Shown here in pieces: positions 10,534-31,685 of a stretch of DNA of 64,000 bases. The stretch covers positions 25,873,160-25,937,159 of the forward strand of contig OZ024927.1 of assembly GCA_964017235.1 (NCBI GenBank), written 5' to 3'. Every line of letters begins with the position of its first letter. Position 1 is the stretch's first letter. The notes under the pieces were generated by a model, which saw only the letters and a program-made list of their open reading frames with translations, was not told the origin of the DNA and made no database searches. Both the position numbers and the translations under genes were made by a program. The DNA comes from Sabellastarte sp. h YS-2021 (taxonomy: Eukaryota > Annelida > Polychaeta > Sabellida > Sabellidae).

Positions 10534-10539
10534 GCTATT
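10534..10539. other. Polinton target-site duplication, left (GCTATT)
   Basis: GCTATT immediately precedes the left terminal repeat and is repeated exactly after the right one at 31686-31691. Six-base duplications are the norm for Polinton integrases. Confidence 0.9.
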
Positions 10540-11710: not shown

Positions 11711-11933
11711 GACCTCTACACACACACTCACTCGCATAAGCTGTTTCCAACTGAATACCTGACGAAGTGAAGTCATATCTCAAACCCAATAACTGCAGAA
11801 TGCTACATCAGCAAAATATCTAACACTATATAAACGACCCTCATAGTTGAACCCATATCATTTATTAACCTCAAATATACAAGTAGATACAAGTTAAATA
11901 TCCTTTAATTTAATCATTTCAACAAAAAAAGAA

Positions 11934-12419: not shown

Positions 12420-13063
12420 AAATTGCTGTGATCCGTCTATTGTCGACATAATGGAAGCATTCTTTAAACAGATGAGACTGATAATATCATAGAATATAAT
12501 ATAATATATGTATAACTGTCTATGTAATTATGTAAATATAGCACTATTCACAAATAAAATTTTCTCCACATCATGGGACATTGTTTTCTTATATTAACCT
12601 ATATACATTCTGTTCTCATAACCCTTTAACCCTACCACATCCTAGTTATCTATATATTGCATGCTGAATCTTTCAGCCCAGCTCAATCCTCAAGGTTATA
12701 AATATGTACGCATAACTCAGTACTATCTCATCTAATTTACCTCAGGTTAACCAAATACGAAGTGTACCCCAGGAATCATAAAAATTTTAATTAAATTTTA
12801 ATTTTTTTTTTTAAATCTCAGGTATGTTTGGATATCATAGATACGTTTACATATAAATATTTCATGAATTTTTCCTGACCAGTACACAAATTACGCTCAT
12901 GTTGTATATAAGCCATAAGCTGATACTGTTTGCAGGTCATTTTGGGCTGACCAAGACAGAAATTGCATTTCAAAGAAATGATAAGAAGATACAAGAACTA
13001 ACCTACAAATTTACAAGAATTTAAAGTAATTTTGACATAAAACTCGGAATAAAATTTAAGGAA
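12420..13063. other. Intergenic, BIR to PC4-like gene
   Basis: This holds the BIR 3' flank with AATAAA (about 12554), then AT-rich sequence. No E-box/GGATCC module is present here, so the next gene is either read through or driven by a weaker AT-rich promoter. No other ORF was noted. Confidence 0.5.
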
Positions 13064-13777: not shown

Positions 13778-14082
13778 CGATAAACTAATAACCCCAACTC
13801 ATCTCTATATATCTTTTTGAATTATGTATAATCTCAAGGACATAAACCAAAGATCTAGTTTAGTATAATCTCTATATATGGCTAACAACCTTCATGGTCT
13901 ATGCACACTGTATAAATCTGTAAATATAAAATCTGAGACTCTTTTATCAGATAACTTCCTCTGCTAGATGGATCTGAGGTGTATGCAAGTCATCAGTGGT
14001 ATTAAAGGATAAAATCATACTTAGATCATAGCCATTTTCATTGTGATAGACAGACTGGGAATAATATCAATACTCAGAGGTA
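13778..14082. other. Intergenic, PC4-like to RING gene
   Basis: Three hundred bases of AT-rich non-coding DNA with no promoter module and no ORF of note. The first exon of the RING gene begins at 14083. Confidence 0.5.
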
Positions 14083-15277
14083 ATGGATCACTTCATTGAG
14101 AATGAAATGAACATCTTTTTAGGTACTCGCTACAATATATACTATCCCATTCATATGCCATCTGTGATGGTTACATTTGTTCAATTGCTTCAATATATAG
14201 ATGAGGGAGCCTTCCACAATGCGTTTGCTTGCTTGCTAATGATGGGAGAGATACTTCCGGACTACTTTATGTAAGTATTTTAACTTATCTGGACTCTACG
14301 TTTTGATGAAATATTTGCAGCTAAACACCTCACTATTTATACAGTATATTATGTCACGTGATGGGATCCAAAAAACCTTGCAGAATAAAAAAACTGATTG
14401 GCTAATACATATCTATGTCAAGGACGGGTCAATCGCATTTGGATCCCATCGCGAAATCATATATAAATGACCCGTCGCTTCTCTCAGTGTGCCAATTTTC
14501 AATCTGCATGAAACTGTTAAACACGATAAATTTCTCCTAGCATCTCACATCAATTTATGTATTTATATCTTGTTTAATTTTAGCAAGAAGTATCCAGATT
14601 TTTCAAAGTATTTCATCGAGGAACTTACTAAAGCCAGCTGTGGTATATGTAGCGAGTCATTAAACAGAGAACAGATAGTATTAACTAATCCTTGTGGCCA
14701 TATCCTTTGTGTCACCTGCTCCACACAACTGTGCAAGGTTTGGAAGGAAAATGGTACCACCAGAAAGCGATGTCCTATCTGCAGAACTCTGATGTTAGGT
14801 CATCTTTTTGCAAAACCAGCTTTGTTTAATTGTAGTAGGTTAAACAGCACATCTTTGTTCATTTGGGTGCCCACATCTGTGTATGTTCGACAGAATTATC
14901 CCCAGTCTCTGTTAGAGTGTCTTAATGAAAGAAACTTTAAGAAGGCATTTTATTATACTTTCCTGTTGAATTCTGTACCAACTAAATTGGAGGAATCTTT
15001 GGCACCAGGGTGGGGGGATTACTATCAGAGCCGAAGGAATAATTTGTCTTGCACAATATGTGGCCTACCCATCAGATTCGAAATGGCCTTTGTAGCTAGA
15101 TGTGCCCATTTTTTTTGTACTATTTGTTCATCTTACACAGTTGAAAGACGTAGGGTAACCCCCCTAAAATGTAAGGAATGTGATGAAGATTTGGAAGATG
15201 ACATTACAGATATACTCTTTATGAGACCAAGTGCGGAGCCTCCAGCTTTAGAAAACAGTCTGGAGCGTATTGAGTAG
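14083..15277 (+). CDS. Two-exon protein with duplicated helical + RING module
   Basis: Exon 1 is 14083-14270 and ends at a strong donor (GTAAGTAT). Exon 2 is 14584-15277 after TTTAATTTTAG. Phases match (2), and exon 2 has no in-frame ATG of its own. The ~293-residue product repeats one plan twice: a helical block (QYIDEGAFHNAFACLLM; ECLNERNFKKAFYYTFLL) followed by a RING-type zinc finger. RING 1 (~82-130) is CGIC...CGHILCVTC...CPIC. RING 2 (~219-262) is CTIC...CAHFFCTIC...CKEC. RING folds usually act as E3 ubiquitin ligases, and with the nearby BIR protein it could modulate host death or immune signalling (inference). The intron contains promoter module P2, so a shorter transcript is possible. 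Confidence 0.7.
14333..14470. promoter_or_regulatory. Promoter module P2 (inside the RING-gene intron, bidirectional)
   Basis: CACGTG (14355) and GGGATCC (14363), ATTGG (14396), TCAAGGACGGGTCA (14418), GGATCC (14441) and ATATATAAAT (14458-14467). On the left side the minus strand reads TATAAATAG (about 14341-14333), so both directions have a TATA. It lies within intron 14271-14583. Confidence 0.65.
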
Positions 15278-15763
15278 GTTGTTTGATTTCTTTGTTGCAT
15301 AATAACTGAAGGGAATTTTGAATCAGTTTAAAGATAAGCAATCTGGCAGTCTGGTCTTGCTTTACACACATGATATGCCTCTCTCTTGATGTATATATAT
15401 ATACCAAAATTTCGAACGTCAGGGAAAGCACTCATACATACCACAATTTCGAACGTCAGGGAAAGCACTCCAGAAAGGACTGACCTCATTTAAAGGTTGT
15501 ATCTAGGTTTTGTTTTGTTTTTTTTCTTTTTTTAGATATACACCCATAGTACCTTAGCCAAGAAATAAATATTCAGATGTTTTTGTTTTTTTTCAAATTT
15601 AATATTACTTTAATGAACATTCTTTACAATGAGACCAATGCATGCACTATTTTTTTATGCAGCTTATTATATATGTCTCTGCTAATTACAAACTTTCAGA
15701 ATGCTAACAATCTACTTTTGGATATTTAAGTGTGTCTATTGCCTCAAACACAAAGCTAACAAT

Positions 15764-15804
<41 letters not shown>

Positions 15805-16092
15805 AAATAAATAAAAAAAAAACTGGTTATATTAGTGCAATATGTTGACTTCAAATATTAAAAAGATTAATTTCAAAACATTTCAAAATATAACTGTGTG
15901 CAATATCATCTTTAATTGACATTATAACATAAGGGAGGTGGTTTGACGACGTATTACTGTAGGATATCTCTGTATCTGATGATGAATTATTTTTCATTTC
16001 TTTTTTTCCTTTTTGGTACATCCACTTAATTAAATGTTGCAATAAAGATATTCTTGTGTATAATGAAAAGTTAAAACAGTAAATTCTAGTTT
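15278..16092. other. RING-gene 3' flank, 24-nt motif pair, AT microsatellite
   Basis: Two near-identical copies of ATTTCGAACGTCAGGGAAAG lie at about 15410 and 15449; relatives flank the capsid gene (24286-24465). AATAAA is at about 15562. An (AT)n tract occupies about 15765-15800. An 81-codon minus ORF lies at 15851-16096 (separate entry). Confidence 0.6.
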
Positions 16093-16096
16093 TCAT
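15851..16096 (-). CDS. Small unknown ORF overlapping the membrane-protein stop (ATGA)
   Basis: This 81-residue ORF has an ATG that overlaps the TGA of the membrane-protein gene (TATGA at 16093-16097). It is basic at the start, has a Ser/Asn-rich middle (NNSSSDTEISYSNTSSN) and no recognisable domain. The same ATGA overlap recurs in the integrase cassette, the only reason to suspect it is expressed. It may equally be chance. Confidence 0.3.
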   Translation of the reverse strand: MKTRIYCFNFSLYTRISLLQHLIKWMYQKGKKEMKNNSSSDTEISYSNTSSNHLPYVIMSIKDDIAHSYILKCFEINLFNI

Positions 16097-17122
16097 ATGT
16101 TTTTATAGAACCTCTTCCCGGATCTGGTGATAAGGTAGTTATTATTGGAATCACTACAGTCTGGAGTAGTTGTTGTGGATGAATCCTCACAATCCGAGTT
16201 ACACAGTTCGTCCTTGCTAACTTGTGTGGACTTGTCTTCAATTCTGTCCGCGCATGGGTTTGAATCTGTGTTTGTTTCTATACTACATGTCTCTATAATG
16301 GAGGAGGGAGGTGTGGATACCTCACTGATCATTGAAGGTTTGGAATCGCTATGTGCTGATTCGAAATCAGAATCAAATAAAATTTTCTTGCGAATATTAT
16401 TTGCCTCAGTCCCTATCATACTATTCCATGGTATTTCCTTGGAGGTTAATGAATCTTTACTGTCAGATGAACTCTCAGTACTCACTCCATGTTCTAAATT
16501 GCTGCTCAATCTCCTCTTCAGGCTAGTAGTATTCTTTGAATCACATGAAGATGATGTAATTGATAAAGTATCCTGAGATAAAGCATTTTCTAAATTTTGA
16601 CAGAAACAACACCTGCATATGAAGAGGATAATACAACTATATATCCTATTGAGGATATCATGCCTAAATTTCTTTAGAATATATGCAAGAAACAGTAGTC
16701 CAATAAGGCTGAGGGGAAGAAGAAACAGAAGATTCAGCTGTGGAGATCTATTAATTTGTGATTCCTCTGTCACTGCATATTGGATGCTACTCCTGGTTAC
16801 TTGCTCCATCTCCTGGACTGTGAAATATATACATAAATTAACATCTGAAATATTTGTTTTCGATGAAAGATTACATGAATACAGGTTGATTTATACGAAG
16901 CATTGTGATGTGAAACACTGTACCTCCGACATACACATACAAATGATATCTTGCAAATATTCTTGCTAATAATATTTCAATTTACACCCACAATTTATAC
17001 CTACAACATAGTTCAATGCAAATCCATGGAAACCATTAACAATATCATTTCCTGAATATTCCTCGTAAATATGAACATCTGAGAAGGAATTATCTGCGAA
17101 AATAAATTTTTGAAAAAATTAT

Positions 17123-17154
<32 letters not shown>

Positions 17155-17580
17155 TCTTTATAGATTACAGAAATATAACCAAAATTTACCTTCTGTACAA
17201 CCCTCAACATAAACAGCGGACCTTGTGTAGACACAAGTGCCTTTACAATACCAATATAAGCGCTTCAATGATGGGTAATTCACTTGGATCCTTTCGACAG
17301 GAAGAGACAGATACCCTACATAGCAGTTCGTGTACAACAATATTTTAATAGTTTCATCACCACATCGATTCAAGAAGTCTTTAAACTCTTCATATCCCTC
17401 TAGACCTTCCACTGTACCAGTAATACTGTTCTTATGAAATCTACATTTCACGTGATAGCAATTTGTATAGTCCAATACATAGGTTATCCACAAACTTATC
17501 AGAAAATTAACCAAGATATTATAACCCGCCATTTTCTTCGTTTCAATGATGAATTTCTGAAACGCAGAAAATTCATACAT
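16093..17580 (-). CDS. Three-exon type I membrane protein (cargo gene M1)
   Basis: Exons run leftward: 17580 (or ATG 17532) to 17190, donor GTAAAT; 17093-17001, acceptor TTTTCGCAG, donor GTATAA; and 16817-16093, acceptor TTTCACAG. All junctions are phase 1 and the frame stays open. From M17532 there is a signal peptide (NILVNFLISLWITYVL) and a Cys-rich ectodomain with a leucine-rich-like stretch (YLSLPVERIQVNYPSLKRLYW). The last exon encodes a transmembrane helix (LLFLLPLSLIGLLFLAYILKKF region) and a ~170-residue Ser/Asp-rich cytoplasmic tail. Function is unknown; a surface receptor or decoy is a guess. CRE-like TGACGTCA lies upstream at 17614. It resembles gene M2 in layout. Confidence 0.65.
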
Positions 17581-17937
17581 AATACGTCATGACATAATTG
17601 CGTCATGGGCATGTGACGTCACAGTCAAAATTCACCGAGGTAAATAGAAATTAAACAATGTATAAGCCTTTTACCTACAATTTCGGACAGTTCGCAGAGG
17701 GTACATTCTTCCTCATTCCATAGTGCACTCTCTGTAGGTGTTTGTTTTCTAGCTCGATCATTTTGACAACAGCTTGGTTTCATGTAATGGCTATAATTTG
17801 ACAGCAAAATAGACTCGAACTATATACATATAGGGAATTTATTCATATTTAATATCTATGGTTTTTTCGTCAACATATATATTTTTATATATAAATACAT
17901 CTTTACATAACTTTTTTAACTGTTATCATTGATTGTC
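17581..17937 (-). promoter_or_regulatory. Upstream region of M1 with CRE/ATF-like cluster
   Basis: CGTCA motifs stand at about 17585, 17601 and 17617, the last within a perfect GTGACGTCAC palindrome (17613-17622), 35-80 bp upstream of the M1 ATG. Such sites bind CREB/ATF. A 60-codon minus ORF (17625-17807) followed by a GTAAAA donor could be a 5' exon, but nothing supports it. The rest (17810-17937) is AT-rich and precedes the M2 stop. Confidence 0.45.
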
Positions 17938-19196
17938 CTACCATTCCTGCAATTCTATTCCTTCCAAATTGCCCTCATTGATAACACTGGTGATTTGCAT
18001 CATCGCTACATCACGCACAATTCGAGCTCTCTCTCTAGATCTCCTTCTCCTCATTCTTCTCCCAGCTCCTCCACCCCTTTGAGGTAGCCTCCATTGAAAT
18101 TTCTGTGACAGACATTTGATAAAAAAACCAATGAAAAGCAAGCCTAGGATGGAGCTGGGGATGGATGCTAAAAATATAACCAATTTCGAATGCCCCTGAA
18201 CAAGAGCATCCACAGTGACCCCTGATTGGTAGACAGGAGATGTTTCTTCAGTGGATTTGGAATTATAGGAGCTAGTTTTTTTGTATGTGAATGAGGATGT
18301 GTCTCTACCCATGGTGCCTATATCCATGCTACTAGGTCTGTTTTCAATGCTAACATCCTGATATGTAGGTTTCCATGAGGAGGCAGGTGTTTTTGAATGC
18401 AAAATGTCGTCCTTTGAACTCGAACTCAAGATCTCCTCATTGGTGGTTCCCGATTTACCCTGAATTGTGACTATTGACTTGGAGGTGATGTCCCCAGGAT
18501 ATGTTCTTGGGGTACTACTATCAATGCTTGGGTAATCTACAGAGTAAATAAAAAATATATATTACATACTATATTTGAGTCGAGATTAAATATGAAAAGG
18601 TCTGAAATATCACAGGTTTTTTTTCTTTTTCATATGTTGTTGACGACAGAAATCTAGCTTTTATATGATCCACGATGGGATCCAAATGCAACTGTAACCG
18701 ACCTTGACCTAAATAAATCAACCAATAAAGGGTTTATATTGAAACCTCAGATTTTTTAGATCCCATCACGTGATCCAAACATCTTTCATATATAAATGGA
18801 ACAAATTTTACTTCAATCTGTCACAATCAGTTACTCACCTCGTGTTGGAGTACTGCTCCCCCAGTCAGATTGGCACATATTACCCATCAATTTTATTTGT
18901 TGAGGCATATCCTTTATCCAGTCGCAGTTGAAATACAGCATGTTGATTAAAGTTAAATATTCTAGAGAGGGTAGAGAATTAAATATATTTTGCATACCCA
19001 GAACTTGTACCCTCTCCATATGCAGTCTACTCACACTGGGTCTATATATAAAAGATGGGGTGATCACATCTAAACAGAAAATTGACTCATCATCACAACT
19101 ACAGAAATCTTGTATACAGCTAGTGGTTGCACCCATATCCCAGGAAAGTATCAGGGATATGTAAAAAACACAAAAATATCTATCTTTCCTCATCAT
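17938..19196 (-). CDS. Two-exon type I membrane protein, LRR-like ectodomain (cargo gene M2)
   Basis: Exon 1 is 19196-18839, ending CGAG|GTGAGT, phase 1. Exon 2 is 18536-17938 after TACTCTGTAG. The frame is open across the join. The N-terminal signal peptide is YFCVFYISLILSWDMG. The ectodomain has a Cys cluster (CIQDFCSCDDESIFCLD), then SLPSLEYLTLINMLYFNCDW, which resembles a single leucine-rich repeat with a Cys cap. A Ser/Thr-rich stalk follows, then a helix (LVIFLASIPSSILGLLFIGF) and a short Arg-rich tail (RRMRRRRSRERAR). Function is unknown. The layout (signal, Cys/LRR-like head, stalk, TM, tail; phase-1 introns) parallels M1, so the two may be diverged duplicates. Confidence 0.65.
18645..18800. 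promoter_or_regulatory. Promoter module P3 (inside M2 intron, bidirectional)
   Basis: Left: minus-strand CATATAAAAG (about 18668-18659) and GGATCC (18678). Middle: ACCGACCTTGACCT (18697) and CCAAT (18722). Right: GATCCCATCACGTGAT (18759) and CATATATAAATGG (18787-18799). It could start rightward transcripts toward the ATPase/integrase genes and leftward ones into M2 exon 2. It lies entirely within M2 intron 18537-18838. Confidence 0.6.
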
Positions 19197-19427
19197 TTCA
19201 ATTCTGTTTATTTGCCTGTAGTGTTCTAGTCCAGCCTATTTTCAAAACTACCTACGTTAAAGTGTGCAAACAAATGAGAGGTAGAAATAGATGCAAATAG
19301 TATGCATATGTTACATGCATTTCAAATTCGTTTGCCTATAAATAACCGCAATATATCCTGACATTTATATTTAGGAGGTGAGAGGTTAGGTTGTAAACAC
19401 CTAATTTATCAATCTAATTGCTGATAA
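19197..19427. other. Non-coding between M2 and the packaging ATPase
   Basis: There is a TATA-like CTATAAATAA at about 19336 on the plus strand. No ATG lies between it and the ATPase frame. A possible 3' splice site (TGATAAAG) ends at 19429. Nothing else was seen. Confidence 0.4.
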
Positions 19428-20030
19428 AGGAAACCAACCAGAATATCAGGACCTACAGCATCGGGAAAATCTACATTTATATTTAAGGTTTTGAGAAATC
19501 TAAGATACATGTTCAATGAACCTGTTTATAGGGTTTATTATTTCTATGGGGTTTGGCAAAAACTTTTTGATACCATAGAGGCTCCTAATGTCGAATTTAT
19601 TAAGGATTTACCTACCCAAGAACATTTAGAATCGATTGCAGATGACAAGCACAAATTAATTGTTATAGATGACCTACAGTTTTCGGCTTTGAACAATGCA
19701 TTCATAGCCAATCTTTTTTCTCGAGAGGCGCATCACAGAAATATTAGTGTATTTTTAATTTTACAGAACCTATTTCATCAGGGCAAATATTGCAGAGATA
19801 TATCTCTGAATACTCATTATTTTATACTTTTTAAAAATCCAAGAGATGTACATCAAATCAGACATTTCGGGTCACAGTTGGGTATTTGTAAGAAATTATT
19901 AGAGGCCTATAGAGATGCCACTGCTTCACCTTTTAGTTATCTGTTGATCGACCTCGCTCCTGCCTCTGATAGTTCCTATATGTTGAGGTCAAATATATTT
20001 CCAAAAGAACTAGCAATCGTATATAAGTAA
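19428..20030 (+). CDS. Packaging ATPase (FtsK/HerA-type, Polinton A32-like)
   Basis: The frame is open from 19428 to the stop ending 20030. It encodes a Walker A GPTASGKST (19449-19475), Walker B LIVIDDLQ (about 19664-19687) and a sensor-like stretch FLILQNLFHQG, as in Polinton DNA-packaging ATPases, which pump genome into capsids. There is no in-frame ATG ahead of Walker A: an in-frame TAA sits at 19425-19427. The true start therefore needs an upstream exon spliced near 19430, a non-ATG start, or the gene has lost its start. At ~195 residues the core is slightly short for the family. It opens a tight + strand cassette with the next three ORFs. Confidence 0.8.
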   Translation, partial: RKPTRISGPTASGKSTFIFKVLRNLRYMFNEPVYRVYYFYGVWQKLFDTIEAPNVEFIKDLPTQEHLESIADDKHKLIVIDDLQFSALNNAFIANLFSREAHHRNISVFLILQNLFHQGKYCRDISLNTHYFILFKNPRDVHQIRHFGSQLGICKKLLEAYRDATASPFSYLLIDLAPASDSSYMLRSNIFPKELAIVYK

Positions 20031-20117
20031 GCATCAGAGGCAATTCCTGCTTAGTTTTCAATTTGTACAAACAGATTGAGGATGCCATATATTTCTAGGA
20101 TATGAAATTGAGAAGAT

Positions 20118-20426
20118 ATGTCAAGAAACCTAAAAAAATCTAAACATTATATATATCTGCTATTAGATAACAATCTGAATCTTAATAAACATATATTGAC
20201 ACATGCTGGAAGGAGAAACCTACAGTCTTTAGCAGAAATCTTCTATAACGTATTTAGACTGCCTCTATCCAATAAAACTAGGAACAAGTTCCATAAGAAT
20301 ATTAAAATTTTAAGAAAATTTATTCAATCACCAGTCAATAGAGACAAAATTGCTAGGAGGAATTACAAGGTTTTTTCAGATCTCCTTGGATCAATAGCGA
20401 AATATTTAAAAATAATTCTGAAATGA
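20118..20426 (+). CDS. Small basic Polinton protein (PX/core-like)
   Basis: The 102-residue Lys/Arg-rich protein has the plan RNLQSLAEIFYNVFRLPLS, then KFHKNIKILRKFI, DKIARRNYK and a hydrophobic C-terminus (FSDLLGSIAKYLKIIL). Small proteins of this pattern sit next to the ATPase or capsid genes in adintoviruses/Polintons and in related small DNA viruses. They are thought to be virion components. Its stop overlaps the next ORF's ATG (ATGA). Identification is by layout and pattern. Confidence 0.5.
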   Translation: MSRNLKKSKHYIYLLLDNNLNLNKHILTHAGRRNLQSLAEIFYNVFRLPLSNKTRNKFHKNIKILRKFIQSPVNRDKIARRNYKVFSDLLGSIAKYLKIILK

Positions 20427-20671
20427 ATAAATTCATACTGGTCCCTAAAGAACAATTTGAAAATTTGAGAGAAAATCAGATCTCTGAAACGGGGACAGAT
20501 AGTAAAAATGAATCAGCATTAGAAGAGAAAAATAGTGAGGAGGGGCAGAAGATTATAAAAAATCAAGACACCTCCACAAAGGGTGATAAAATTATAAAAG
20601 GACAAGACCCTCCACCTGGTCTACCCAATCATTATCTAGAGGTAGATAAAAAAAAAAATTTCAAAATATGA
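20423..20671 (+). CDS. Small acidic/polar unknown protein, ATGA-linked
   Basis: The 82-residue ORF starts MNKFILVPKEQFENL, a start pattern I associate with adintoviral/Polinton small proteins, and continues polar and repetitive (KIIKNQD / KIIKGQD). It overlaps both neighbours by ATGA (20423-20426 and 20668-20671). No domain is recognisable. The overlaps and conserved-looking N-terminus support translation. Confidence 0.45.
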   Translation: MNKFILVPKEQFENLRENQISETGTDSKNESALEEKNSEEGQKIIKNQDTSTKGDKIIKGQDPPPGLPNHYLEVDKKKNFKI

Positions 20672-21904
20672 CAGAGATAGAGCGGTCAGAAATTCCAGTG
20701 GAGGAAGAGGTGGAAACAAGGATCCAGAATGGGTCAGATTCTGGAACAAAAATATCAGATGAGGAGGGCGACTACCTCAAGGATATATATTACAGCCCTC
20801 GGAGTCCTGTAGCTTTCAGCGGTTTTCAAAAGATTTACAAATTTATAAAACAGGAGGGGAAAAACATCAAACCTAAAAAACTGAAAGTTTGGTTAAGCAA
20901 ACAAGAAGCTTATACATCTCATTATCCAGCTCGAAGAAAATTTCAAAGACCTAGGGTGTTGGCTTTTTCAAAAAATTATCAATGGGACACAGATACTGCA
21001 AATATGAATCAATACAAGAAATACAATGATGGCTATGGCTATTTTGTGGTATTTATAGATATATTTACGAGATTTCTGTATACAGCACCTCTGAAAACTT
21101 TGACTGGTAAGGAAATGGTTTATATTTTAAATCACCTAATCAACACTATTGATGAGCAACCTAAAAAATTACGAAGTGATCAAGGAAGCGAATACCTAAA
21201 CAGAGATATGAGGAAATTTGTAACTGATAAAGGAATAGATCATATATTCACATTTTACGAAACAAAGGCAAATTTTGCTGAGAGAGTAATAAAAACTATA
21301 AAATTGAAAATTGTTAAGTATTTCACAAATAAAGAAACCTACAGATGGATGGAAATATTACGAGATCTAACTTACAGCTATAACCAGTCATATCATAGGT
21401 CCATCAAAATGTCTCCCTCTGATGCACAAGATGTTGACAGTTTTATCTTATGGAAGAGACAATATGCTATCGATTTAAATAAGCCGAGCTCTTCCGCCAA
21501 AAATTATAGAAATAAAACTAAAAATAATTCCTCAAGAAAACTGTATACCAAAAGATATAAATTCAAATTAGGTGACAAAGTAAAGATCAGTTACATTAAA
21601 AAAAAATTTGACCGAGTATTCTGAAAGATGGTCTGGAGAGATTTTTACCATTGTTGAGAGGAAAATGAATCAGAAGGTACCAATGTATAAATTGAAAGAC
21701 TATAACAATGAAGTTATAGAATCCTATTTTTATGAACCAGAGTTACAGATGGCCTATATCGACAGTGATGTAATTTATAAGATTGAGAAAATACTGCAAA
21801 AAAGAAAAAGGAATAGAATTTCTGAGGTTCTGGTGAAATGGAAGGGGTGGCCAGATAAATTCAACTCCTGGATTCCCGAGAGCGATTTACAGGATATAAA
21901 CTAG
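20668..21904 (+). CDS. Retroviral-type integrase with C-terminal chromodomain, frame break at A9
   Basis: Polinton integrase. After a polar N-terminus it has the region AYTSHYPARRKFQRPRV and the DDE core: D109 (QWDTDTANM), D171 (RSDQGSEY) and E205 (NFAERVIKT). D171 and E205 are 34 apart, as expected. The open frame ends at 21624, but the next part of the protein (SH3-like region from about 21608 and chromodomain VIYKIEKILQKRKRN...VKWKGWPD...SWIPESDL, 21765-21900) lies in a different frame. The frames meet at a run of nine A (21598-21606). This may be a sequencing indel or true inactivation. The enzyme joins element ends to target DNA, giving the 6-bp duplication. Confidence 0.9.
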
Positions 21905-21954
21905 CCTGTCTAACTGGCGTATCAACTGTTGGACTCTTAGTTATATATGTTTGC

Positions 21955-22035
21955 GCAAACATCACGTGATGGGATCCAAACGCGAATCTAGGTCAAGGTC
22001 GGGCATAAATCAGTTTCGATCTCATATAAATAGAA
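21955..22035 (+). promoter_or_regulatory. Promoter module P4 (capsid operon-like cassette)
   Basis: CACGTG (21963), GGGATCC (21970), TAGGTCAAGGTCGG (21989, two abutting AGGTCR half-sites) and CATATAAATAG (22023-22033). The minor capsid ATG is 58 bp beyond the TATA. The right-hand GGATCC box of the other modules is reduced to GATCTC (about 22018). Confidence 0.7.
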
Positions 22036-22091
22036 AGGAAGGAAACGAAATCCTTGGAGAGATTATGATGCTACACATTTAAAAGGAGAAA

Positions 22092-22505
22092 ATGTGTAGT
22101 AAGGATATTTATTTATTTATTTCCTCAGCTGATTCTAAGAGTTATCATCCAGACAATAAACCTCATACCTTCATTGTTGAATTGGGTGAGAGATTAAATC
22201 TAACCGGTAGATGGTTGGTGGGGCTATCTGATCTCAATTTAAATGTATCAAGTACTGAAACTTTGTATATATTTTGTGATATTTGTGACAATTCATATTT
22301 CCAAAATTCAATGAAACCTATCTTGAGAATGATTTATCCGACTGATTCATCAAAGTCGGTTAATTTTTCTAAGAGATATTATATTCCACTAGCTCAAAAA
22401 AACTTCACGCGCTTGCAAATATATATAAGAGACAAGAGCATGAATGTGCCATCTATTATGACAGAGGATCTACAGCTGACATTACATCTACAGAGGGATT
22501 ATTAA
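22092..22505 (+). CDS. Minor capsid (penton-like) protein
   Basis: The 137-residue protein begins MCSKDIYLFISSADS, followed by HTFIVELGERLNLTGRWLVGLSDLNLN. This start, with the edge strand and the W-x-VGLxDL box, is characteristic of Polinton/adintovirus penton (single jelly-roll) proteins, which occupy icosahedral vertices. Length fits the family. Directly after P4; its TAA is 2 bp before the next ATG, so the three capsid genes form one compact unit. Confidence 0.75.
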   Translation: MCSKDIYLFISSADSKSYHPDNKPHTFIVELGERLNLTGRWLVGLSDLNLNVSSTETLYIFCDICDNSYFQNSMKPILRMIYPTDSSKSVNFSKRYYIPLAQKNFTRLQIYIRDKSMNVPSIMTEDLQLTLHLQRDY

Positions 22506-22507
22506 AA

Positions 22508-22942
22508 ATGAATAAATATCTCGATTTCTGTAACAGATGCATGCAAGGAAAGATAAATTTTCATAAGAAATTTTATAATCTTGATAATGACCTAAAACTG
22601 GAAAATAAAACAGGAGAGGGGGAGAAAACGAGTAATGTAGACATATCAGTGGTCACTCCTACCCAGGCGGCAGTAGAACAGGCTCGGAGTGAGGTTAAAC
22701 AAGAAAAGGCTATAAATAGGGGTAAAAAAGGAAAGTACAATCAGTTTGGGGGGAGTACATCATCAATCAAAAGCAAAACCAGGAAAAAGGGGAAAAATAC
22801 TAAAACCCCCAAAAAAGTGTTGAGGTCCAAGAAAGGTGGAAAGAAAAAAATTGTTAATATAACCAGGACCCAAAAAGGTTTAATTAAAAAAAAAAATCAA
22901 AAAAAAATCAAAGGGGGTGGGTATAGTTCAATATGGATGTAG
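22508..22942 (+). CDS. Basic core/DNA-condensing-like protein
   Basis: The protein has 144 residues, and the second half is extremely Lys-rich (KSKTRKKGKNTKTPKKVLRS, KKGGKKK, GLIKKKNQKK). The C-terminal KIKGGGYSSIW includes I-K-G-G-G, which fits the adenain-type cleavage rule (M/I/L)-x-G-G-x, and an adenain-like protease is encoded nearby. Adenoviral and adintoviral core proteins have the same properties, so I infer a virion DNA-binding protein. The ORF overlaps the MCP start by 10 bp. Confidence 0.6.
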   Translation: MNKYLDFCNRCMQGKINFHKKFYNLDNDLKLENKTGEGEKTSNVDISVVTPTQAAVEQARSEVKQEKAINRGKKGKYNQFGGSTSSIKSKTRKKGKNTKTPKKVLRSKKGGKKKIVNITRTQKGLIKKKNQKKIKGGGYSSIWM

Positions 22943-24240
22943 TTCAGACATCTCTAAGTCTGTTTCAACCCCCACCAATTGACAAGTCAATTCAGAGGGA
23001 ATATTGGGTTGAATTTAACCCTATTGCTACAATATCTGAAAGTGGAGCCATAGAATTTAATATTCCTGGTACCTCCCTTGATTACATAAATTTGGCTAAG
23101 ACTAGGTTGCAGGTTACTTACGTTTTAACTACAGAAGATGGGAATCCGATCAAGGATGAGAGGGGTGACCAAGGGCAACCTTTAGATACCTCGGATCAGG
23201 TTGCCCCCGTTAATCTGACTCTACATTCAATATTTCGACAAATAGATTTGTCTTTAAATCAAAAAGTAATTTCGCCAGATGTAGGTGTAAACTATCCATA
23301 TAAGGCTATGATAGATTTTCTTTTGGGGACAACTACTGATATGATCAATTCTCAAGGCCAGGCTGTTTTATTTCATAAGGATCAACCCGAAAAAATGGAA
23401 ATGGTCACTTATTTAGGGGGTAATCCAGCGTTTACTTATAGAGCAGAAAAAAACAAAGATGGGGGGTCAATAACTTTAGAAGGATCCTTGTACCTAGATT
23501 TTGCCTTTGGTCAAAACAGAGCTATTTTAAACGGTGTGGCTATCAATGTTAAGTTATTTCAGGCAGGGAATGACTTCAGATTAATGAGACATGGTGTGAA
23601 GGTCTATAAATTAAAGATACTGTCAGCTGTGTTAAAGGTCTGTCATGTAGGACTGAACCCCTCTGTAATTGTAGCACATAACGAGGCTCTAAAATTAGCA
23701 CCTGCAATATACCCCTTCTGGAGGAGTGACATAAAAAGTTTCAGTGTTGCTGCTGGTTCTCAAACCTTTATGACAGATAATATCTTTCATGGTAAGGTAC
23801 CAAGTAAATTGATAATAGGAATGGTGTCAAATTCTGCCTATTCAGGTGACTTTAGTAAAAATCCCTTTAATTTTCAGCATATGAATGCCAATTACCTGGA
23901 GGTCACTGTGGATGGTCAACCAGTACCTAATAGACCCCTCAAACCTAACTTTGAGGAAAAAAATTATGTGGCGTCTTATCTGAGCTTATTGGACAGCGAC
24001 CTTAATCGCAAGAAAGGAATCATAATTCGTATGGGAGATTATCCTGGTGGTTATGCACTCTATCTTTTTGATATACAGAGTTTCCTCAGTGGAAAAATTA
24101 TGTCAAGTCCAATGAAAGGGCATCTTAGGTTGAGCTTAAGGTATGCCAAGGCCTTAGCAGAGACTATTAATGTCATAGTTTATGCGAAATTTCCAGAAAT
24201 AGTTAGGATTGATCAGAGTAGAAATGTGACTATGAGCTGA
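22933..24240 (+). CDS. Major capsid protein (double jelly-roll)
   Basis: The 435-residue protein starts in the tail of the core gene (ATG 22933). Recognisable Polinton/adintovirus MCP blocks include SIQREYWVEFNPIATI, IEFNIPGTSLDYINL, NLTLHSIFRQIDLSLN, YPYKAMIDFLL and, near the end, GHLRLSLRYAKAL and TINVIVYAKFPEI. These correspond to the first-barrel entry and the final strands in the family. Length is as expected for a hexon-forming double-jelly-roll protein. The frame is fully open. Together with penton, ATPase and protease it gives the element a complete morphogenesis set. Confidence 0.9.
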   Translation: MDVVQTSLSLFQPPPIDKSIQREYWVEFNPIATISESGAIEFNIPGTSLDYINLAKTRLQVTYVLTTEDGNPIKDERGDQGQPLDTSDQVAPVNLTLHSIFRQIDLSLNQKVISPDVGVNYPYKAMIDFLLGTTTDMINSQGQAVLFHKDQPEKMEMVTYLGGNPAFTYRAEKNKDGGSITLEGSLYLDFAFGQNRAILNGVAINVKLFQAGNDFRLMRHGVKVYKLKILSAVLKVCHVGLNPSVIVAHNEALKLAPAIYPFWRSDIKSFSVAAGSQTFMTDNIFHGKVPSKLIIGMVSNSAYSGDFSKNPFNFQHMNANYLEVTVDGQPVPNRPLKPNFEEKNYVASYLSLLDSDLNRKKGIIIRMGDYPGGYALYLFDIQSFLSGKIMSSPMKGHLRLSLRYAKALAETINVIVYAKFPEIVRIDQSRNVTMS

Positions 24241-24604
24241 GATCTATCAGACCACGTGATGTGAATGACTGGTTTATATACTCAGATTTCGAACGTCAGA
24301 GAGATCTCTCATCAAAAATCCGAGCTTCAAGGAAAGCACCCTAGATATTTAGAATGTAAAGGAAAACACCTGTAGTACACAGAGACAGATTTCGGATAAT
24401 AAAAAAATTCCGAGCTTCTGAGAAAGCACCCTTGATTATTTCGAACGTAAGGGTAAACACCTACATTTAATGTGGTCACGTGATATTGTTAGAGTAGATA
24501 TAACTGTAAGAGGATGTGGAAGTACAGGAATTTGTGTTTTACAAGTTGGTAGAGTAGGGATAACTGGGCAATATAGCTTGAATCTAATGTGCATGTGTTG
24601 AATA
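24241..24604. other. MCP 3' flank / protease 5' flank with repeated motifs and E-boxes
   Basis: This contains five degenerate copies of the ATTTCGAACGTCAGGGAAAG motif (about 24286, 24318, 24352, 24408 and 24438). CACGTG lies at 24255 and 24478, bracketing the motif cluster. No GGATCC boxes are present. A TATA-like TTATATACT lies at about 24273. Confidence 0.6.
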
Positions 24605-25051
24605 ATGGATTCCAATACCCTTGCAAGATTAATGACAAGTGACAGAATGATTGAGAGGCGGTTTCGTGGGATATATCCACTAGATATGATTCCCAAGAAT
24701 ATTCCTGCTAATTCTTTAATTGTTGTAAATCAAGACAGGTCCATGGAGGCGGGGAGTCATTGGATTGTACTACATTATAAGGAAAAAGACATAGTTGAAC
24801 ATTTTGATTCAGTAGGAAAACCACCAAAAAATTTCATACATAATTTATTAATAGGTAACAGGAGTAAATATATGTACAATAACAGTAGATTACAGGCATA
24901 CAATACTAATACATGTGCATTGTTTTGTTTATACTACAGCTTCTATTCCTGCAGGTTCATGTCCTTTCAAAAAATACTACAAGGATTTAGCTCCGATTTA
25001 TCGGATAACGAAAAAATTGTAACTAATTTCTTCTTGATGAATTTCAGTTAA
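24605..25051 (+). CDS. Adenain-like maturation cysteine protease
   Basis: The 148-residue protein has the catalytic layout of adenovirus protease/Ulp1-like C5/C48 enzymes: H52 (GSHWIVLHY), D68 (EHFDSVG), Q97 and C104 (LQAYNTNTCALFCLYY). Q to C spacing is seven residues, as in adenain. It probably matures capsid and core proteins at GG-type sites. It is shorter than adenain (about 200) but typical for Polintons. It ends 64 bp before the convergent polymerase stop. Confidence 0.85.
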   Translation: MDSNTLARLMTSDRMIERRFRGIYPLDMIPKNIPANSLIVVNQDRSMEAGSHWIVLHYKEKDIVEHFDSVGKPPKNFIHNLLIGNRSKYMYNNSRLQAYNTNTCALFCLYYSFYSCRFMSFQKILQGFSSDLSDNEKIVTNFFLMNFS

Positions 25052-25115
25052 AAGTGTATCAATAGGTAATTTCTTGTCAGGTTTGTCATTCTGAAGCCAA
25101 TAAAGATATGCTGAT

Positions 25116-28100
25116 TTATGGTGACTCTTGGTTAATTTTTGTGGCATATTCCATGAGAATTTGTCCCATAAGGTTGTTGCCAGATATTGAAGAGAGAGAA
25201 ATAACCTGAGCTAATCTTGATGACAGAGGAGTACCCCAAAATGTCTCTTCATTTTTCCCTAAATTCATTTGTTTATAAATTATGCATTTATCCTTTGCAT
25301 TACACAATTCATTCCTGAACTGATCAACTTGATGTATCTTCTGCATAATAACGAATCTCATAATTCTCTCCTTTTCAAATTGATTGGCTAATAATTTTCC
25401 ATATTTCCCAATAACTGCCTGTATTTCTATAGGGTCATCAGATTCCTTTATCTTAGTAGCTAGATCGACCTGATTGTAAAATTTAGCCAAAAGATGATAA
25501 AACATTTGTTCAGCTGAATGATAGTTATTATCCCCATTTTTCATTTCACATGAGTAAAGGTTAGATAATGGATGGTGGGCTTTATCCACAACTAGGTTAG
25601 TAGACTCCCAGGGTGATAATGTAATATTTAAGGGTTTGGTAGAAACGCCATCGGCTAGCACCTCCCTTTTACAGTAGAAATAATTAAAACCTATCTTATC
25701 CTGCGAATAGGTGTATATATCCGACTTTCTGATCCGAAATCCGACATTATTGGATTCAATTGTGGTCTTGTTGTGTAGAGCCTCTTGAAATTTTTGCATT
25801 GGATCTTTCAGGTTCTTTTTGGAAATACCTTTACATGATACTTTTTGATTTCCATTAGCATCTTCTATTATATATGACTTAGAGCACAGTGATACCATCT
25901 TAACGCCCTCCCATTCCCGCTTATAACTACCAACATGTCTCCCATCGACCACCAGATGGCGCTGGCAACATCTTCTAGGAAACCAGGTGGGACTTTTTTC
26001 ATCTGAGCAAGATTTAAAAATTTCTTTCTGATATCTATCATGGTGTGAGGATCTAATACACTCGTCTATGCTTGCTTGATTAATAGCCATGTATATACTA
26101 TCAGTGTCTGTTTCTGTGAGTTCAAAACTATCTTCAATAAAATATTTGGAAATGCAGTCATAAAAGAATTCTAGCATTCTTAATTTAGCATATTGTAGAA
26201 TGAAAAACCCAATTTGAATGGGGTTATCCATTACAATAGTTTTCTTATAGGATTCAACTTCAAAAATTTGGTTATTTAATTCTTCTAGAGTTTTAAAATT
26301 GGGCGAATTAATCATTTGTGTGACCTTGACCTTGTTGTACATATATCTTGTCTGTGTATGTTTAGAACGGTCCATTAAAACAGATCCATAGCTGGAGTTG
26401 CTTAACAATTTGTATGTGTCCCCAATAATTGCTTTATCAGGATTCTGATCTCCTCTAATTCTATGCATGGTGACTGTGTCTATAAAAGACTTGAAAGAGG
26501 TAAGTGGTTGGTACTCGACCAGCTGATATATCCTCTCTATCTCACAATGATTATTCAAATACCATTGTAAAAGTGGAGTAGCAAGTAATATCTTTTTCGC
26601 CTTAAGTCCACTAATTAATAGTCTTTTGTGTGAAAACTCTATGCCATTTTCCTTACAGTACTGCTGCATATGAGGTCCTATGTCATCCATTTCAACATTG
26701 CAAGTGCAAAAAAATGGGGGATATTCTTGAAATTTTTCGATAAATTGAGGTATAACTCTGATATCAACCTCCACAGCACCGAATAGCCTACCGTTCTTTA
26801 TGTCTTTAATTATTTTTTTAAATGACAATGGACCCTTATTCCTTTGGTAGTATGATGGCAAATATTTATCATATATCTTACTGCACTTAGGTTTTATTTG
26901 AGAAATAAATTCACATTCCTGAATGGTAATCACTTCATAGCCTTGGGATATAAGAAAATTTCTTCTGATCATATCCTTTGTTTTGGTTTTTTGTAATTTA
27001 GAAAGCCATGTCTTACTCTTTATTCTAGATGCAATATTACAATTATGAGGACAATGGTGATAATAACATCCGTTGTACTCATAAACTGTTTTGGTTCTAA
27101 TACAAAATCCATCCACTAGATAATTACCAATTCTTATCTCTTTGGAATTATTCAGTTTATGTAAAATTTTGATTTTCTTATCTTTCATAAGAAAATCCAT
27201 CCAAACGTAAGAATCTATATACTTTTCACTAAGCTCTGGTCTGAAATCGCTGTGTTCAAATCTTCGAATATATACACCTGTTGGCATCTTCTGTTTAATG
27301 GCATATGAATAAAGTCCATTACAATCGTACCCTACCACAGCTTTGCATAGATTATTGTCTATATTTTTTATATTTGTAACATCCTTCTCATGATACCTAG
27401 AAAATATTATGCTGGGGCCTCCTACAATATTTTTTTTCATGGTATAATATAGATCAGCATTTTCTTTATTTATTAATGAAAATTTGCTACCTGATGATTC
27501 ATAGAGCATTTTTCTAGCTACTCCAGGTAGTGTCACATAATCTTTAAAAATGTCTATACCCTCTTGCTTATAAATATCTATAAAATTGGTAAGGGCAATG
27601 ACAAAGGGACCTGTGTCTAAATTATTATAATACATCAGATAATCTTTAAAGGTCTTCATATTATTACGACTCCAAATATCTTTAAGGTGATCGTAATCTT
27701 CGTCAGTTTGTATTGGATTGGTTCCACTTAATTTCGAGTAAAATGCTTCTGGTGGAGGTAAGTATGGGTCATCTAATTTTGAGGGTGAATCTAACCATTC
27801 ATAGGGAAAAATTCCTTTAGATATTTCACATCCGTATGCTTTAAGAAATTTGCTATATGAACAACCAGCAGCTAGATAATTTGTAATATCTAAAAATTTC
27901 ATTTCAGGTACTGCAATAGAGATGTAGGTGTTATTCCTTTTTATTGTAAATATTTCATTCTGTTTATACGTGTACGAAATATATGCCATTATATGCCTCT
28001 TTATAAGATTTAAATCATACTTCCCAGAATTAAAACCTAAAACTGGTATCTGCCTAAGGTATCTGTCAAATTCTTTCTTCAAATTTATAATTGGGTTTGA

Positions 28101-29921
28101 GGAATGTTTCTGGTTTAGGATAAGATTTGAGGATTCGTTTGATTCAGTTTCTGAATCTTGATTTTGTGTACTTTCATAGCTTTCTATTAGTTCATCCAAT
28201 TGTTGGATCAAAGATGCATACTTTTCTGTTAAAGTATGATAGCAAGCATTACTGATATCTTGAAGTGAGGTCATCATCTTATTAATCAGTTTTTCCTCGT
28301 TTAAATCTACTATACATTTAGGTTCTTCATAGCCAGAGACATTGGAGGCGATACTAATGCTGATAGGTACATGTTTGGTCAACCATTGCAGCTTCTTATC
28401 CTGTGAATCAGAGGTAGATTGGATTTTTTGTAACATAGCCTCCATATCCCATACAATAAAGTTTGGAAAATATTTTTCTGATTGTGGAACATTAATTCCC
28501 ACTGATTCTAATTTATCAAAAATAGTTGGCTGTGTTTTATGAAAACCCCCTGGAAATAGATATTTGGTTCTTTCATAACATTGTGATGTGTGTCTCTTCA
28601 GATGCCATATCTTTTTAAAAATTTTAGAGCATTTTTCGCATTGAAATTTTTTTGCATACTTTGAAAAATTCGTAATATAACTATAATGATTATGGTAGAC
28701 ATTAAGATACATTTTAGAGGAATTTTGTGACATAGTTTCGTATACACAGCTCACAGTTCCATTTGAGTTAAGATTGTATATCAAAATCTTAATATTATAA
28801 CATTTCTCAATCTCTATGATATCCTGAAAATTGATTCCTGGAAATTGGCTCTCATCCATATCACTGTTGTTTGTATATTTCAGCCACATTCGTAAATAGT
28901 CTTTAACCTTTCGGTTATTATTCCCAAAATGTAACTTGATACATCTAAAAAAACATAAATTATCCTGATATGGTTGATTTTTTCTGCGATTCATCACTAC
29001 ATTTTTTAAATATCTGTTAGTGGAGACATAGGATGGTAGTTTGATGTTGGCTCCAAGTGGAAAATCTGTTAAAAATACATTATACTGGACATTGGTTATG
29101 AAAGCTAGAGTCCATGCAGTGGAAGGTCTAACTGCTCTGGCTTGTTCAATAATATCTATTCTTAGGATTTTGTTCATCAATAGACGTAAACTATTTCTAT
29201 TAGATACTGTAAAAGGATATGTTAGAATTCGACTGTTGAAATATGGTATATAATACCTATATTCCCCTGTTTGATTATTGAATAATATCATACCAAAGGC
29301 AAAATTAATTCTATATGTCACATTTAGGTCATCATAAATGTCATTTAAGTGTCTCCTGATTTCTGCATAACCATCATTCAGATTGTTAGTTGAAAAGTTA
29401 TATACATGCCTCAGATCACCCTCATGATGATAATCCTTAATATGATTCCTGTTGGTTACATAAACCTCTCGAATGTTTTCGTTTTCTTCATTCTGTATAT
29501 AGTCTGGATTATCCTCATTATCAGTGTCATCATCATCATCATCATTGCCTCCATGTTGGTTCATTCTATGGTGGTAGAGCTCTCGTCTACTTGTACAAAT
29601 TCTCTTACATAGAGAGCATGCATATGTCCTGGCATTGTTGAGGTTTTCATTACGATGATTTAGATGAATATGAGAATTCAAAGCAACAGTGGTCAAAAAA
29701 GGTATATCACAGTTAAAACATTGATACTTGCCACATTTCCTCAGATGAAACCTGAGTTCCTCTGAGGTGTTGAACTTCTTTGCACATATTTTACATATTT
29801 CCTGAGATCTTCTGTCAGATAGGAGGCATACTCTTTGATGATGTTGCAGATTTGAATTAGTAATCATATCCCATCCACAATAACAACATCTATAACACCT
29901 TGGTGGTGTGGTTGGATCCAT
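25116..29921 (-). CDS. Protein-primed-type family B DNA polymerase with N-terminal zinc fingers and C-terminal NADAR domain
   Basis: This 1601-residue protein replicates the element. Residues ~8-130 are four C2H2 fingers (CYRCCYCGWD..., CKICAKKF, CFNCDIPF, CSLCKRIC). Around 320-440 is an OTU-like region seen in animal Polinton polymerases (DNLCFFRC...MYLNVYHNHYSYI) ending in another finger. The 3'-5' exonuclease has DMEAM (~490), FNSGKYDLN (~630) and YNNLDTGPF (~765). The polymerase has motif A DCNGLYSYA (~864), motif B KLLSNSSYG (~1172) and motif C TDTDSIY (~1270). Residues ~1449-1592 match NADAR/YbiA: HPLSNLYSCE, NYHSAEQMFYH, FWGTP and NNLMGQILMEYA. NADAR proteins are N-glycosidases acting on ADP-ribose-linked substrates; here the role is unknown. 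The whole frame is open; ATG at 29921. Confidence 0.93.
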   Translation of the reverse strand: MDPTTPPRCYRCCYCGWDMITNSNLQHHQRVCLLSDRRSQEICKICAKKFNTSEELRFHLRKCGKYQCFNCDIPFLTTVALNSHIHLNHRNENLNNARTYACSLCKRICTSRRELYHHRMNQHGGNDDDDDDTDNEDNPDYIQNEENENIREVYVTNRNHIKDYHHEGDLRHVYNFSTNNLNDGYAEIRRHLNDIYDDLNVTYRINFAFGMILFNNQTGEYRYYIPYFNSRILTYPFTVSNRNSLRLLMNKILRIDIIEQARAVRPSTAWTLAFITNVQYNVFLTDFPLGANIKLPSYVSTNRYLKNVVMNRRKNQPYQDNLCFFRCIKLHFGNNNRKVKDYLRMWLKYTNNSDMDESQFPGINFQDIIEIEKCYNIKILIYNLNSNGTVSCVYETMSQNSSKMYLNVYHNHYSYITNFSKYAKKFQCEKCSKIFKKIWHLKRHTSQCYERTKYLFPGGFHKTQPTIFDKLESVGINVPQSEKYFPNFIVWDMEAMLQKIQSTSDSQDKKLQWLTKHVPISISIASNVSGYEEPKCIVDLNEEKLINKMMTSLQDISNACYHTLTEKYASLIQQLDELIESYESTQNQDSETESNESSNLILNQKHSSNPIINLKKEFDRYLRQIPVLGFNSGKYDLNLIKRHIMAYISYTYKQNEIFTIKRNNTYISIAVPEMKFLDITNYLAAGCSYSKFLKAYGCEISKGIFPYEWLDSPSKLDDPYLPPPEAFYSKLSGTNPIQTDEDYDHLKDIWSRNNMKTFKDYLMYYNNLDTGPFVIALTNFIDIYKQEGIDIFKDYVTLPGVARKMLYESSGSKFSLINKENADLYYTMKKNIVGGPSIIFSRYHEKDVTNIKNIDNNLCKAVVGYDCNGLYSYAIKQKMPTGVYIRRFEHSDFRPELSEKYIDSYVWMDFLMKDKKIKILHKLNNSKEIRIGNYLVDGFCIRTKTVYEYNGCYYHHCPHNCNIASRIKSKTWLSKLQKTKTKDMIRRNFLISQGYEVITIQECEFISQIKPKCSKIYDKYLPSYYQRNKGPLSFKKIIKDIKNGRLFGAVEVDIRVIPQFIEKFQEYPPFFCTCNVEMDDIGPHMQQYCKENGIEFSHKRLLISGLKAKKILLATPLLQWYLNNHCEIERIYQLVEYQPLTSFKSFIDTVTMHRIRGDQNPDKAIIGDTYKLLSNSSYGSVLMDRSKHTQTRYMYNKVKVTQMINSPNFKTLEELNNQIFEVESYKKTIVMDNPIQIGFFILQYAKLRMLEFFYDCISKYFIEDSFELTETDTDSIYMAINQASIDECIRSSHHDRYQKEIFKSCSDEKSPTWFPRRCCQRHLVVDGRHVGSYKREWEGVKMVSLCSKSYIIEDANGNQKVSCKGISKKNLKDPMQKFQEALHNKTTIESNNVGFRIRKSDIYTYSQDKIGFNYFYCKREVLADGVSTKPLNITLSPWESTNLVVDKAHHPLSNLYSCEMKNGDNNYHSAEQMFYHLLAKFYNQVDLATKIKESDDPIEIQAVIGKYGKLLANQFEKERIMRFVIMQKIHQVDQFRNELCNAKDKCIIYKQMNLGKNEETFWGTPLSSRLAQVISLSSISGNNLMGQILMEYATKINQESP

Positions 29922-30599
29922 GGCGACGTTTCTTAATAGATTGTATAAGATGATGAAAAAAAATTTTCATAATATCAAGAGAGTATCTTGGATAGTGGTA
30001 ACAACAACATCCAGCATACATGAAACACACCCAAAATCTCCTAAGAGAGTTTATATCGACAGAAAATAATATTACATCCAAGATTGGGCATGGATTCTGG
30101 TTATGTACATGTGGAACGAGCCTATTTATCTCCCTCAAACCTTTCAAATTGATAAACATATTTATCAGTTATGTTATCATATGAGGCGCATTTAAAGTCT
30201 GAGTGTGGATATTTATTGGTGTTGTTTATATAATAAAAACAGGGTTAGCCCTCTTGATAACGCAAGGAAAACAGCTGATTAGGTCACGTGATGGGATCCA
30301 AATGTGTAGGTTGTAAATTCTGTGATTGGTCAGGTGGTTAATTAGGTCAAGGAAGGTCAAATCGGGTTTTAGATCCCATCGCGATTTCATATAAATAGCG
30401 AGTGAGAAATTCCACTTCATCATTTACGCAGAGATGTTTCGAGAGTCCTCAAGTATGCTTTGTACCCTATTACCCTTGTGTTTATGTTACATGTAAATTG
30501 TTGGAGTAGTTTAAAGAGGAGCCCCCAAATATACACTCACTTGGTAATTATTCCTACACGAGAGAAGCATTTGATTATATGATAATATTATTAAGTTTA
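29922..30599. promoter_or_regulatory. Polymerase upstream region with promoter module P5
   Basis: Module P5: CACGTG (30285), GGGATCC (30293), ATTGG (30325), AGGTCAAGGAAGGTCA (30344), GATCCCATCGCGA (30372) and CATATAAATAG (30388). Its strong TATA faces right. For the polymerase, the minus strand has TTATATAAAC at about 30234-30225. To the right, an ATG at 30434 opens only about 20 codons before a stop. No larger + gene lies between P5 and the right TIR. Confidence 0.6.
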
Positions 30600-31685
30600 T
30601 TGCATCTTGAGGTTAATTTAATATTAAAGGTTTACATACCTGAGGATAGGTCTACAATAACATCAAGGGTTTACATACTTGAGGATAGGTGATGGAAAAG
30701 TATTTGTAGGGTTGATTATATTGGGGTTACACAGAGTTGAGGGTATGAGTGTTATTAGAGGTGTTAACAGATTATTGGCTCACTTCATGGAAATATTGGT
30801 GTTAGGGAGGGTTTAAATAACTCTGGTTAGGTCATAGTGTGTGATTATTTGGTTAGTTGACCAAAATATGTGGGTTGGGGGTTTACATTCCTGGGGTTAG
30901 GTCTTAATTAGAGAGATATTTATGACATAGATATTAGGGTTGGGGTTACATAAATAGAGATTCCTGGGGTTAAATCATATGTGGGTAGTTAGGGGTTAGA
31001 TATAGATATTGGGGTTAGGGTTGGGATTACATTCTTGGGGTTAGGTCATAATTAAACCCAGATAAATAGGTGTTGGGTATAAACCTTTGGTTTGGGTTAC
31101 GTATCTAATTAGGTCGAGATTATTTGCTTTCAAAATATTTTTGGGGTTAGGGGTTGAGGTTACATAGCTGGTTGAGATTATTTGCTTTCAAAATATTTTT
31201 GGGGTTATGGGGTTGGGGTTACATAGCTGGTTGAGATTATTTGCTTTCAAAATATTTCTGGGGTTAGGGGTTGGGCTCTAATTATGTTGAGATTATTTGC
31301 TTTCAAAATATTTTTGGGGTTAGGGGTTGGGGTTACATAGCTGGTTGAGATTATTTGCTTTCAAAATATTTCTGGGGTTAGGGGTTGGGCTCTGATTATG
31401 TTGAGATTATTTGCTTTCAAAATATTTTTGGGGTTAGGGGTTGGGGTTACATAGCATTTCTCTGATTATGTTGAGATTACTTGCTTTCAAAATATTTTTG
31501 GGGTTAGGGGTTGGGCTCGAGATTATTTGCTTTCAAAATATTTTTGGGGTTAGGGGTTGGGTTAGGGCTAATGAGATCATATGCTTGAGTTGTGTGTTTG
31601 GTAGTTGACAATAAAAGGCTTTTACAGTTGATTTACAAATACCCAATAGTGATCGTGTAACTGGTGTGGCACTTAGATTACTACT
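30600..31685. repeat. Polinton right terminal inverted repeat with eight subterminal units
   Basis: Eight units (starting about 31116, 31173, 31233, 31289, 31346, 31402, 31472 and 31519), each GAGATTATTTGC, TTTCAAAATATTT, then GGGGTTAGGGGTTGGG, at 47-70-bp spacing. The terminal 130 bp mirror the left end. Inward (30600-31115) similarity to the left TIR is looser and T/G-rich. Units resemble telomere-like TTAGGG tracts but are not exact telomere repeats. Confidence 0.85.

Follow-up and report, generated by a model that had tools for sequence, protein, structure and literature searches.

The DNA polymerase of an intact Polinton in the annelid Sabellastarte sp. ends in a NADAR-fold domain, and by alignment this domain has lost residues on which known NADAR chemistry depends. 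We judge that the tail, with a somewhat better than even chance, is a pseudoenzyme NADAR that has been kept on the polymerase as a non-catalytic binding module. Throughout, the window refers to the whole 64,000-nucleotide stretch of contig OZ024927.1 that was analysed.

The NADAR-tailed polymerase and its Polinton

The polymerase gene (25116..29921, - strand) is a single open frame of 1601 aa that encodes a Polinton family-B DNA polymerase bearing C2H2 zinc fingers as well as the NADAR-fold tail; both zf-C2H2 and NADAR were matched by Pfam. The phi29-type core occupies residues 483-1413 (25683..28475, - strand), and the polymerase model has the phi29 polymerase fold (VIA-align), with the tail (25119..25607, - strand; Pfam match 25146-25583) placed behind its thumb. 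The initial annotation had proposed a NADAR domain fused to a Polinton polymerase, to be checked against the Pfam profile, and this fusion was borne out by both score and fold. The tail scored 51.5 bits against PF08719, above the gathering score of 35.1, and its model contains the YbiA fold, with five core helices and two small sheets, that matched structures 8bau and 2b3w in Foldseek. Further Foldseek matches, and the globin and other matches of a separate comparison, were taken as chance. Among the 50 listed of 101 BFVD structure matches, none was named Polinton or adintovirus. Within the polymerase, residues 923-1008 form an endonuclease-like insert, which matched DUF559 in the window protein (E 0.0012) and a Vsr endonuclease when the family profile was used (E about 1e-4).

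The element that carries this gene spans 10540..31685 (no strand assigned; 21,146 bp from outer end to outer end of its terminal inverted repeats). Repeat analysis of the window found its ends intact: the left (10540..10835, +) and right (31390..31685, -) terminal inverted repeats are 296 nt long and 99% complementary, with three mismatches, and they are flanked by the 6-bp target-site duplication GCTATT (10534..10539 and 31686-31691). The Polinton/Maverick hallmarks of long repeats with a 6-bp target duplication, and of a protein-primed-type family-B polymerase with an rve integrase, are thus both present. The integrase (20668..21624, +; PF00665 E 5.2e-12) is overlapped by a chromodomain open reading frame in another frame (21608..21904, +; PF00385 E 3.5e-11), a split across 20668-21904 that may reflect a frameshift or an expression device. 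A probable packaging ATPase lies at 19491..20030 (+), with a weak Pox_A32 match (E 0.0046) whose 16.9 bits fall short of the curated cut-off, 22.8. From the usual Polinton gene order, we take 22933..24240 (+) to be a candidate major capsid protein and 24605..25051 (+) a candidate cysteine protease; these assignments are based on position and size, and neither frame had a match in Pfam or PHROG. The element also contains a BIR-domain (IAP-like) gene (11934..12419, +; PF00653 E 2e-20), a PC4-like gene (13064-13777, +) and a RING gene (14489-15277, +). Beyond the element, the window holds open reading frames for a DDE_Tnp_4 transposase (39499-40584, +), a protein kinase (33014-33673, -) and a reverse-transcriptase RNase H (4726-5838, +), as well as densely packed inverted repeats at 47019-48490.

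As defined in PMC11071296, adintoviruses have a PolB with an N-terminal OTU-like domain, an integrase with a C-terminal chromodomain, and a hexon that BLASTp can match to those of reference adintoviruses. The window polymerase is of the same class as the Polinton/adintovirus PolB of that account, and the element has both integrase and chromodomain, here with the chromodomain in the overlapping frame. A Pfam scan of polymerase residues 201-454 for the OTU-like domain returned zinc fingers only. The account differs from the window polymerase in that the word NADAR occurs nowhere in its main text (PMC11071296).

In agreement with the initial annotation, which was aware of no account of this fusion in Polintons, we found no description of a NADAR on a Polinton polymerase in open-licence full texts; one may exist elsewhere. 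The founding NADAR paper is reportedly that of De Souza and Aravind in 2012. NADARs have been reported in the Gypsy Pol of Ectocarpus and in the Tx1 LINE ORF1 of Crassostrea gigas (PMC12477816), and these cases resemble ours in that a mobile element gained a NADAR joined to its own protein; unlike the Polinton, they are described as retrotransposons, with the Gypsy NADAR in the N-terminal region of Pol. Polyproteins of invertebrate nidoviruses, hepe-like viruses and picornaviruses also carry NADAR alongside the polymerase, where a role against host ADP-ribosylation was proposed (PMC9503650). In that description the domain is part of a polyprotein, in contrast to the C-terminal extension of a DNA polymerase that we report here.

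Distribution and possible maintenance of the tail

We surveyed relatives of the window polymerase using core residues 830-1440 as the query, which returned 644 sequences; the best 120 of 644, ordered by how closely the polymerase resembles that of the window, were sorted by their C-terminus. Tails of at least 130 residues aligning with the family were labelled NADAR (P0009 and P0042 were labelled by eye), tails of 116-129 residues were labelled short, and polymerases with fewer than 40 C-terminal residues were labelled untailed. This gave 27 NADAR, 15 short and 72 untailed C-termini, along with 5 polymerases truncated upstream and 1 with DUF4326. The window polymerase is therefore not the sole one with a NADAR tail. 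Its tail is identical over 161 residues to that of P0002, a protein that is non-identical overall. The initial annotation had also raised the prospect of a tail common to all Polintons, and this was rejected, as 72 of the 115 polymerases with a readable C-terminus (among the best 120 of 644) have fewer than 40 residues there.

The 27 NADAR-labelled polymerases comprise 24 with tails of 140-210 residues, P0010, the cut P0009 and the tandem P0042, and 22 of them (among the best 120 of 644) carry a precomputed PF08719 call. Scores below the gathering threshold were obtained for P0071 (E 5.6e-05), P0111 (0.0058), P0010 (0.051) and P0058 (0.079), and the 51-residue stub of P0009 had no PF08719 match; at E up to 0.1, all 16 tails of one family alignment matched. 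When 4 of the 15 short tails were scanned against Pfam, none matched NADAR. When the profile of the short tails was compared with that of the long ones, the score was 64.9 (E 1.9e-10); 200 column shuffles never exceeded 19.9. No locus coding for a relative turned up in IMG/VR when P0002 or alignment A3 was the query.

Several other C-termini were unusual. In P0042 (1626 aa), the last 240 residues consist of two tandem truncated NADAR repeats that are 42% identical over 100 residues. Thirteen of the 72 untailed polymerases end in a short acidic peptide such as VDDQELIDMLASNFED, a pattern that was written after examples had been seen; this peptide is possibly a docking motif. P0030 (1576 aa), the single such case among the best 120 of 644, has DUF4326 at residues 1489-1569 (PF14216 E 1.9e-19), where other polymerases bear NADAR.

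On a quick LG+G4 polymerase tree, the short tails formed a single clade (SH-aLRT 100), nested in a group of 45 (SH-aLRT 95) that also held 22 NADAR, 5 truncated and 3 untailed polymerases. P0042 and four other NADAR polymerases were placed outside this group, and the NADAR label required eight changes on the tree, in which an odd residue make-up was flagged for P0008-P0010, P0012 and P0013 and long branches meet at P0100/P0104. Constraining all 47 tailed or truncated polymerases together gave a likelihood 52.9 above that of the free search, which was shallow, with p-AU 0.873; p was 0.934 without P0042 and 0.774 without P0042, P0102, P0105, P0111 and P0119, these groups having been named once the tree had been seen. 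A single origin of the tail is possible, and given the shallow free search and the late naming of groups, neither one gain nor several is established.

Tail identity tracked core identity across 276 pairs of 24 tails (Spearman 0.61; P0010 omitted), with the tail diverging faster; for example, P0002 and P0007, whose clusters have 135 and 36 members, are 40% identical in the tail and 70% in the core. Distant pairs among the 24 open-frame tails average about 20% identity. Open frames at this level of divergence suggest selection on the fold, with the qualification that databases prefer open frames. The most conserved positions, L1452, F/Y1467, K1528, L1539, G1581, N1583 and G1586, are probably structural.

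Loss of NADAR active-site residues

In published NADAR biochemistry, E43 and E125 are described as coordinating the distal ribose, a set of residues that includes K50 and R79 as coordinating the pyrophosphates, and the equivalents of W89, D130 and W133 as touching the ligand in 8bau (PMC11543638). For the E. coli C7 NADAR, mutants at the equivalents of E43, K50 and E125 were reported to give no rescue from DarT1 toxicity. In vitro, E88A, at the position of E43, was of little consequence, K95 (the K50 equivalent) was essential for efficient hydrolysis while K95R still hydrolysed, and efficient activity was lost in D171A/N, with D171 and not E173 acting; the position of the acting acid is said to vary between NADARs (PMC11543638).

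To compare these residues, we aligned 25 long tails with 8bau, 2b3w and 12 phage NADARs, using 8bau numbering and omitting P0042, P0009 and P0030 from residue counts. The phage controls are biased to active enzymes, ten having been hand-picked from 40 listed of 690 phage records like 8bau and the other two taken from 5 listed of 72 records that resemble the tail of the window. As the catalytic residues of a hydrolase we used E43, K50 and E125 (D in BC4488, H in phage NADARs). All three occurred jointly in 11 of these 12 selected controls, in both solved structures and in none of the 25 tails (0/21 when P0010, P0058, P0071 and P0111 were left out). By position, the controls retained E43 in 11, K50 in 12, G78 in 11, R79 in 10 (K in the other two), W89 in 12, E125 in 11, D130 in 12 and W133 in 11. 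Among the tails, the corresponding counts were E43 7, K50 4 (plus one R), G78 1, R79 1 (six K) and E125 0, and the Y84 column was gapped in 24 of 25. Combinations were likewise absent: no tail combined E or D at position 43 with K or R at position 50, none had E or D aligned at E125 (H in one), and none paired G78 with R/K79. Better retained were W89 (15 or 16 tails, depending on the alignment used), D130 (17) and W133 (14). D/E130 occurred along with W133 in 13 of 25 tails, including that of the window, and in four tails an acid lies no more than two columns from E125.

In the window tail, E1471 aligns with E43, L1478 with K50, Y1549 with E125 and a glycine with R79, and W1562 is kept. The strand of the model that matches the E125 strand reads CIIYK, in which a one-residue register shift yields K and no acid; E1558/E1559 lie near the conserved tryptophan. 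By alignment, the window tail lacks the full catalytic set of a NADAR N-glycosidase or ADP-ribose hydrolase. N-glycosidase chemistry had been suggested for it in the initial annotation, which named loss of pocket residues as evidence to the contrary, and on this point the suggestion was not supported. The tail resembles the NADAR superfamily (YbiA, Phytophthora nicotianae 8bau, DarT1-associated NADAR; PF08719) in sequence profile and fold, and differs from it in lacking, by alignment, the known catalytic and several pyrophosphate-binding residues and in being attached to a DNA polymerase. One phage NADAR, L002 (Lactobacillus phage Lpa804), carries Q in place of E43 and L in place of E125, which shows that Polintons are not alone in losing the catalytic centre.

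Possible roles of the tail

As the residues of the known chemistry are mostly gone, the tail probably does another, non-enzymatic job. We propose that an ancestor of one Polinton clade may have gained a NADAR behind the thumb of a phi29-like, protein-primed-type polymerase, that the ADP-ribose hydrolase centre would then have been lost while the fold was retained, and that one sub-clade would have reduced the helical core further. The tail would now hold DNA near the thumb exit, or dock a replication or host partner, without catalysis. DNA may be the most economical choice of ligand, considering that the tail sits beside a polymerase and that DarT1-associated NADARs have been proposed to contain an ssDNA groove; that groove is described as formed by an N-terminal extension, on which it depends (PMC11543638). 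Against a pseudoenzyme stand the persisting W89, the pairing of D/E130 with W133, the near-column acids in four of 25 tails together with the varying position of the acting acid, E1558/E1559 close to the tryptophan of the window tail, and, in vitro, the mild effect of E88A and the hydrolysis still seen with K95R.

Alternatively, the tail could be an active N-glycosidase with rearranged catalytic residues that would cleave ADP-ribose off guanines of the template or off the terminal protein. The modelled fold is intact, the window tail retains E43, which occurs in 7 of 25 tails, the D130 and W133 equivalents are partly kept, tested NADARs of bacteria, a phage and an oomycete are reported to hydrolyse guanine-ADPr (PMC11543638, PMC11125620), and the P0030 polymerase ends in a domain with a proposed place in ADP-ribose networks. 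However, the absent residue pairs and the missing acid at E125 in all 25 tails, together with the reported need of C7 NADAR for D171 and K95 (K95R working in vitro; PMC11543638), make such an enzyme rather improbable, and the residue comparisons led us to drop it as the leading mechanism. It is also unlikely that the tail is an ADP-ribose reader or decoy, one that would bind ADP-ribose, NAD or some ADP-ribosylated target uncut and thereby tether the polymerase or soak up a host signal: the ligand-contacting W89, D130 and W133 equivalents each persist in between 14 and 17 of the 25 tails, but K50, G78, R79 and the Y84 column are depleted as counted above.

A functionless passenger, decaying at a permissive C-terminus, would explain why the tail changes faster than the core, why the P0009 and P0010 tails are cut and the short clade is without much of the core, why 72 of 115 polymerases (among the best 120 of 644) have no tail, and why several tails are weak in Pfam. 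We regard this as unlikely too, since 24 open frames at about 20% identity, near-invariant positions and the correlation with the core are hard to obtain without selection, even with the preference of databases for open frames. That assembly or gene calling fused two genes is extremely improbable and was rejected: there is a single open frame, the element ends are intact, and the same junction recurs in the non-identical P0002 and in divergent relatives.

The pseudoenzyme reading can be extended. DUF4326 has been proposed to act in ADP-ribose networks by processing ADP-ribose derivatives (PMC9503650), which makes the P0030 tail suggestive. Tentatively, and with considerable doubt, we raise the idea that the Polinton polymerase C-terminus is a repeatedly used dock for NAD/ADP-ribose conflict domains, with NADAR in one large clade and DUF4326 on another polymerase, and that NADAR has there become a non-catalytic DNA- or ADP-ribose-sensing clamp, a standing part of the protein-primed replicase.

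Matches to PF08719 on transposon polymerases call for caution before they are described as active ADP-ribose hydrolases, and the window tail offers a concrete protein for assay. If our interpretation is true, an ADP-ribose enzyme has been domesticated as part of a replicase across a large clade of virus-like transposons.
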